From: a virus | Strand: one strand, 5' to 3' | DNA: 64,000 nt | Virus record (IMG/VR): IMGVR_UViG_3300017917_001123 | Location: 124,001 to 188,000 of that record | Shown here: positions 2,091 through 2,545 of the stretch, one piece after another | How the letters are laid out: the number at the start of each line of letters is the position of its first letter | How positions within the stretch are numbered: the first letter of the stretch is position 1 | Position numbers and translations under genes: made by a program | The notes under the pieces: generated by a model | The model's database searches: none | What the model was told of the DNA's origin: nothing | Seen by the model: only the letters and a program-made list of their open reading frames with translations

Positions 2091-2545
2091 AGGCTCGCAC
2101 CGGCTAACATCGGGTGCCTAGCGACAACCCACGTTTAAGGTGGGGGACGGAAGACTCTGCGCTGTACAGAGCACTCAGCAACTATCCTTAACCGGACGAC
2201 GATCGCAAATGCCGCGGTTTTGCTGTTTGAATAGAGTGAACATGAGCTAAAATGATGTGGAAACTAACAATAACCACACCTTATACTACTATGTTAGCGT
2301 ATAGCAGTATAAGCGCCGTTGTGATAAGACGGGGATGGAGGTACCGGACAACCGCCTCTGCTAAAGACCCTAACGCTAAGTGACTTGCCGTACTCGGATA
2401 ATGTCCTTTTCTTAGCCCTTAACGGGCTAAGTGTGACCATTAGTATCTGGATAATAGTTAAAACACTTCGTGTTAGTATCAAGTTAAAGAATAGTGCTTC
2501 TGAGCGTTAGCGAAAGAAGCAAACGAGCTTTAGCTCGTTTTTCAA
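2091..2545 (+). ncRNA. Candidate large structured RNA with multiple hairpins and complementary loops
   Basis: No convincing gene lies between 2075 and 2584; instead there is a chain of hairpins. Exact stems visible are 2097-2101/2113-2117, 2128-2132/2140-2144, 2155-2159/2167-2171, 2190-2194/2215-2219, 2280-2287/2306-2313 (extended by 2289-2292/2301-2304), 2338-2341/2355-2358 with inner 2345-2347/2352-2354, 2411-2418/2424-2431, 2496-2501/2515-2520 and the terminator 2521-2528/2533-2540. Loops complement each other: GCTAACAT (2103-2110) matches ATGTTAGC (2291-2298), TTAGCGT (2294-2300) matches ACGCTAA (2373-2379), and CTAACGCT (2370-2377) matches AGCGTTAG (2503-2510). The element ends in an intrinsic terminator, which favours the plus strand. 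I cannot assign it to a known family; ornate phage RNAs such as GOLLD or ROOL are classes to compare. The 5' end is not defined. Confidence 0.6.
2521..2543 (+). terminator. Intrinsic terminator ending the structured region
   Basis: AAACGAGC (2521-2528) pairs perfectly with GCTCGTTT (2533-2540) around a TTTA loop, with T's at the 3' edge. It directly follows another 6-bp hairpin and precedes the late promoter of the next gene, so it separates the gp46/RNA unit from the downstream late gene. Confidence 0.75.

Follow-up and report, generated by a model that had tools for sequence, protein, structure and literature searches.

What lies between a GIY-YIG gene and the baseplate genes of a giant freshwater phage, in a stretch without any convincing gene? 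The DNA analysed, referred to below as the window, is 64 kb from a viral record of 331,570 bp. A first-pass annotation of its letters had proposed that 2091-2545 is a large structured phage RNA with long-range loop pairing, perhaps an undescribed one, and could not place it in GOLLD or ROOL. The hairpins and complementary segments that it described are present, and a check of open reading frames agrees on the lack of a convincing gene, the frames in homologues being short. The folding energy of the single sequence is unexceptional (z = -1.47; 7 of 100 shuffled sequences were equally good), so that an RNA is not proven by one sequence and the proof comes from homologues.

At least 352 viral contigs or loci with the 3' core were recovered by pattern scans of IMG/VR, in which one pattern for the 5' domain, two for the 3' domain and one for a second type of the RNA (type B, see below) were used. 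Covariation was assessed in 108 non-redundant copies of the type found in the window (type A) by the G-statistic with APC, the null being alignments simulated on the tree. At E < 0.05 there were 22 column pairs, a few of them of a lock-step or other non-canonical kind, and they fall in P1, P3, P4, P5, P6, P7, P9a, P9b, P11, PK8 and PK0. With a counting tool and a separate alignment of 36 sequences, 89.6% of cells were paired, compared with 36-45% for slid structures, and the covariation score was 0.460 against 0.185 when shuffled (0/500). The helices were also checked in a hold-out of 58 copies that had no part in defining them: each was 81-100% paired, compared with means of 25-64% for slid structures. 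Similarity and covariation span the full length, with compensatory changes in the stems and in one long-range contact, and four pseudoknots and about ten helices hold in both the discovery and the hold-out sets. A chance structure or a coding region, which the unremarkable folding energy would have allowed, is already refuted by this covariation, by the out-of-sample pairing and by the short frames, and we give it practically no credence. The region 2083-2545 is a conserved, pseudoknotted, structured noncoding RNA, vertically inherited, from a lineage of T4-like jumbo phages. Its parts and its upstream neighbour are as follows.

1649-2074, + strand: upstream gene, SegE-type GIY-YIG (Pfam PF19835), context outside the RNA (GIY-YIG found in 168 of 191 loci)
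2083-2545, + strand: whole RNA, from 5' tail to terminator-like hairpin and T run (length conserved, with covariation, in the 108 copies; hold-out of 58)
2092-2228, + strand: Polynucleobacter-1 match (Rfam RF01718), forming the 5' domain in type A (89.1 bits over model positions 1-141)
2097-2117, + strand: helix P1, 2097-2101 with 2113-2117 (98% paired, covariation E < 0.05)
2155-2171, + strand: helix P3, 2155-2159 with 2167-2171 (covariation and pairing counts)
2176-2225, + strand: helix P4, 2176-2180 with 2221-2225, enclosing P4a and P5 (covariation and pairing counts)
2185-2196, + strand: P4a, 2185-2187 with 2194-2196, inside P4
2201-2219, + strand: P5, 2201-2206 with 2214-2219, inside P4
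2257-2277, + strand: helix P6, a variable hairpin, 2257-2260 with 2274-2277 (covariation and pairing counts)
2280-2313, + strand: hairpin P7, 2280-2292 with 2301-2313, its loop being half of the long-range contact (365 cells with two-sided change)
2314-2459, + strand: 3' core domain, common to types A and B (matches of model R1 to type B)
2332-2370, + strand: helix P9a, 2332-2334 with 2368-2370 (2332:2370 is the strongest covarying pair)
2338-2358, + strand: helix P9b, 2338-2341 with 2355-2358, within P9a
2411-2431, + strand: hairpin P11, 2411-2418 with 2424-2431, between the twin segments (97% paired)
2495-2521, + strand: hairpin with a GC-GTTA-GC top, conserved as GAGC-N2-5-GCGA (z = -3.2; alignment)
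2521-2545, + strand: terminator-like hairpin 2521-2540 and T run (z = -4.0)

The RNA is about 460 nt long and exceeds the span first drawn, as the evidence for pairing begins at 2084, seven bases 5' of 2091; its 5' end at 2083 was inferred from pairing, not mapped. The sequence of the 3' hairpin varies widely, 77 different versions being seen among 104 copies (an automatic pick in which some are misassigned). Four pseudoknots tie the structure together.

2084-2165, + strand: PK0, 5' tail 2084-2087 with P3 loop 2162-2165 (95% of cells paired, 82 cells with two-sided change; 81% in the hold-out)
2092-2105, + strand: PK1, 2092-2095 with P1 loop 2102-2105 (87% paired, 89% in the hold-out, about 26% in slid controls)
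2294-2379, + strand: long-range pseudoknot, P7 loop 2294-2300 (TTAGCGT) with junction 2373-2379 (ACGCTAA)
2318-2352, + strand: PK8, 2318-2322 with P9b loop 2348-2352 (98.9% paired)

For PK0, which begins outside both the Rfam model and the span first drawn, the pair 2086:2163 exceeds every value of the tree-based null, and in PK8 the positions 2320 and 2350 changed on the same branch in every one of 16 cases. The contact 2294-2300:2373-2379 was one of three that had been proposed as kissing loops. It is conserved with compensatory changes: 96.4% of cells are paired in the 108 copies and 98.2% in the 58 hold-out copies, where 46 of 50 are fully paired, and its best single pair, 2298:2375, gives E = 0.075 with 8 of 10 changes on the same branch. 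A comparable, weaker pairing is seen in type B. As the strand 2373-2379 is a junction, this contact is a long-range pseudoknot rather than a pair of kissing hairpin loops. The other two contacts were rejected because their pairing is not conserved: 2103-2110:2291-2298 is 73% paired in the 108 copies and 71% in the hold-out (1 of 57 fully paired), and 2370-2377:2503-2510 is 67% and 71% paired respectively (2 of 37 fully paired). The initial picture of a large RNA with long-range loop pairing stands, having missed the set of four pseudoknots, the shared 3' domain and the twin loops described below.

The Rfam search showed that part of this RNA already has a name. The full-length match to RF01718, well above the gathering cut-off of 37 bits, is the sole above-cut-off match in the window, and homologues score 55-100 bits (L119 100 bits, L125 55.6). 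In 1900-2800 the GOLLD model is absent among matches at E up to 5, and neither ROOL nor any intron family is matched. The idea that the RNA was undescribed is therefore wrong for the first third, previously known as Polynucleobacter-1, and right for the remainder, which is new. Missing from the Rfam model are the pseudoknot of the 5' tail, the long-range one, the twin loops and all of the 3' domain; the RNA does not end near model position 141, since conserved pairing runs well past that point, and on the 5' side PK0 straddles the model's boundary.

The distribution of the RNA was examined further. RF01718 is tabulated for Burkholderiales, whereas the copies collected here sit in phage contigs, at the 3' end of an operon. 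A scan of genome contigs with the core pattern gave 7 pattern matches, of which only one, a 4.5 kb MAG contig with phage neighbours (L241), is plausible. There was no real match when the window segment and two other copies were compared by BLAST with 50,697 annotated phages, and nothing was obtained with a pattern taken from the type A copies that diverge most (L014-like). The window's record has a single copy, and there was one in each of nine records searched (160-355 kb). As far as tested, this is a phage RNA.

Two types have the 3' domain in common and differ in the 5' domain, which is Polynucleobacter-1 in type A. A second sample, partly chosen with the type B pattern, contained 69 type A copies, 81 of type B (two of these calls being weak) and none that was neither. 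A covariance model of the 3' domain, R1, was built from type A copies alone and nevertheless recovers type B copies, with E values of 1e-9 to 1e-18, and nothing significant in control loci or other phages. It is thus the 3' domain that defines the family. The 5' half of a type B copy (L128) has no Rfam match. By these comparisons the 3' domain is joined to either of two unrelated 5' domains, Polynucleobacter-1 or an unnamed one. The type B 5' domain (e.g. L128:3600-3870, L140, L155) is conserved, about 200 nt long and upstream of the shared core; by eye it has two subgroups, one L128-like and the other L140/L155-like.

The genomic position of the RNA is fixed at the 3' end of the gp46/GIY-YIG gene cluster. 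The recurrent order is gp46, small genes in some cases, GIY-YIG, the RNA and then baseplate genes on the opposite strand; baseplate/m58 genes occur in 158 of 191 loci, always on the opposite strand. Public phage records widely label the SegE-type GIY-YIG family (PHROG 447) as 'NAD synthetase', in conflict with the Pfam match. Just 5' of the GIY-YIG gene in the window is a 64-aa gene (1455-1649) matching Pfam Hc1, a histone H1-like protein (2.5e-15).

Weinberg et al. (2010, PMC2864571), who described Polynucleobacter-1 from Burkholderiales and from fresh water and estuary, scored it as probably an RNA and probably cis-regulatory ('y'), a classification by the authors that is outside the Rfam model. 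The label of a cis-regulatory 5' leader is disfavoured, because the direct downstream neighbour of the RNA is a convergent gene in 51 loci; the RNA sits 3' of a stop codon. A cis role of another kind, as a structured 3' UTR governing the stability or the timing of the gp46/GIY-YIG operon mRNA, has to be weighed. In 51 of 101 copies the first pairing strand of the RNA, that of PK0, meets or contains the end of the upstream stop codon, which makes coupling to translation termination conceivable, and where another gene precedes the RNA that gene also ends at its edge in most loci. A promoter scan of 1500-2700 gave no sigma-70 promoter above chance, and the RNA ends in a terminator-like hairpin. 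The RNA probably forms the last part of an operon transcript, or else its transcription starts inside the upstream gene. Against a stability element, the preceding gene varies while the RNA stays (in L005, L043, L066 and L115 the usual GIY-YIG match is missing and the RNA is retained), and two lock-step loops and exchangeable 5' domains would be hard to explain. We consider the cis-acting 3' UTR rather doubtful.

The adjacent homing-endonuclease-like gene, together with the multi-pseudoknot fold, could also suggest a catalytic RNA or a mobile intron tied to that gene. No group I or group II intron model is matched, the RNA is intergenic at one fixed locus with no gene interruption among the loci examined, and the GIY-YIG family occurs in 497 other phage records, six of which were searched whole with R1 and have no copy. 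This explanation is very improbable.

The most unusual feature of the 3' core is a pair of identical segments.

2396-2402, + strand: twin 7-mer 1 (GGATAAT), in a likely hairpin loop (same as twin 2 in 334 of 338 copies)
2449-2455, + strand: twin 7-mer 2 (GGATAAT), predicted local fold unsettled (same as twin 1 in 334 of 338 copies)

The 7-mer varies between phages, yet is the same at both places within one phage: the twins are identical in 175 of 177 and 159 of 161 copies, against about 43 and 45 after shuffling (about 25-28%). At 2396/2449, 18 of 18 inferred changes fall on the same branch and are the same substitution; at 2400/2453 and 2402/2455 the figures are 8 of 9 and 9 of 11, also identical. 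The bases immediately flanking the twins stay different (C and T before, G and A after), which makes simple gene conversion unlikely. When single segments are folded the 7-mers are mostly unpaired (mean 0.65 and 0.64). No complement that could form a third strand occurs within the RNA beyond chance, and the 7-mer is not enriched in flanking DNA; the partner is therefore not a neighbouring strand. Among the GIY-YIG, m58, baseplate hub and gp46 proteins no residue changes together with the loops beyond multiple testing. CsrA-sponge and box C/D readings, leads taken from general knowledge, and a homing intron were dropped for want of conserved GGA or TGA motifs or of a model match. From the pattern of change we infer that one partner acting in trans reads both loops, or that the loops meet by like-with-like pairing.

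OLE, a large ornate RNA, has protein partners. The RNA described here differs from OLE in having no match to its model. OLE dimerises, and GOLLD is likewise large, phage-associated and pseudoknotted, with a conserved 3' region and a variable 5' region (PMC12286853). The same division is found here, as R1 finds types A and B alike and the type B 5' half belongs to no Rfam family. ROOL, a large ornate RNA of phages and prophages, has covarying long-range loop pairs (PMC12286853). An RNA-only homo-oligomer, a nanocage or dimer like those of GOLLD, ROOL or OLE, would fit this style. Against it, there is no Rfam similarity to GOLLD or ROOL, the RNA is shorter than GOLLD and differently located, no tRNA gene is present in the 64 kb window (GOLLD is often, not always, near tRNA genes), and the twin loops have no self-complementary partner. 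We regard such an oligomer as unlikely.

The architecture is well supported, and the function suggested by the sequences is that of a machine or scaffold. The best explanation overall, and probably the correct one, is a trans-acting scaffold RNA with twin recognition loops, encoded at the 3' end of an operon. The RNA would be transcribed either as the last part of the operon message or from a promoter located in the upstream gene, with transcription stopping at the terminal hairpin. It would then work in trans as a rigid scaffold whose pseudoknotted 3' core displays two matching loops (core RGATRAW), both read by one partner, for example a protein dimer or a protein or RNA present in two copies, while the exchangeable 5' domain would supply a second, type-specific contact. 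A more specific form of this scaffold proposal is put forward tentatively. In it, Polynucleobacter-1 would be a head, exchangeable for at least one other, of an RNA that is widespread among jumbo phages. The two 7-nt loops of its conserved core would stay identical because they recognise a single partner in a strictly symmetric way, or because they touch each other through a homo-base (A-A, G-G, U-U, C-C) contact. Such a bivalent RNA scaffold would be without a described precedent.

What was a small Rfam motif without a function can now be described as a complete RNA: its fold is defined, its place in the genome is constant, and a second class of it carries another head. Hundreds of contigs from environmental phages have it. 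The lock-step loops offer a definite starting point in the search for a partner, and the RNA is a tractable new case for the question, asked for GOLLD and ROOL, of why large phages keep ornate RNAs.

Two other phages have long gene-poor stretches near a baseplate hub gene. In Sinorhizobium phage Phosso (L252:6224-7237) about 1 kb without annotated genes shows several hairpins by eye; it has no Rfam match and no relative among annotated phages. In Pseudomonas phage Cassandra (L254:5529-6873) a long stretch with tiny annotated ORFs only lies in the equivalent place, beside a T4-type baseplate hub gene, and has no match to Rfam or R1. It is 99% conserved in 11 PA5oct/MIJ3-like records, and inspection by eye shows part of it framed by a TTGACA-17-TATAAT promoter and a T-run terminator; a further large noncoding RNA may occupy this site.
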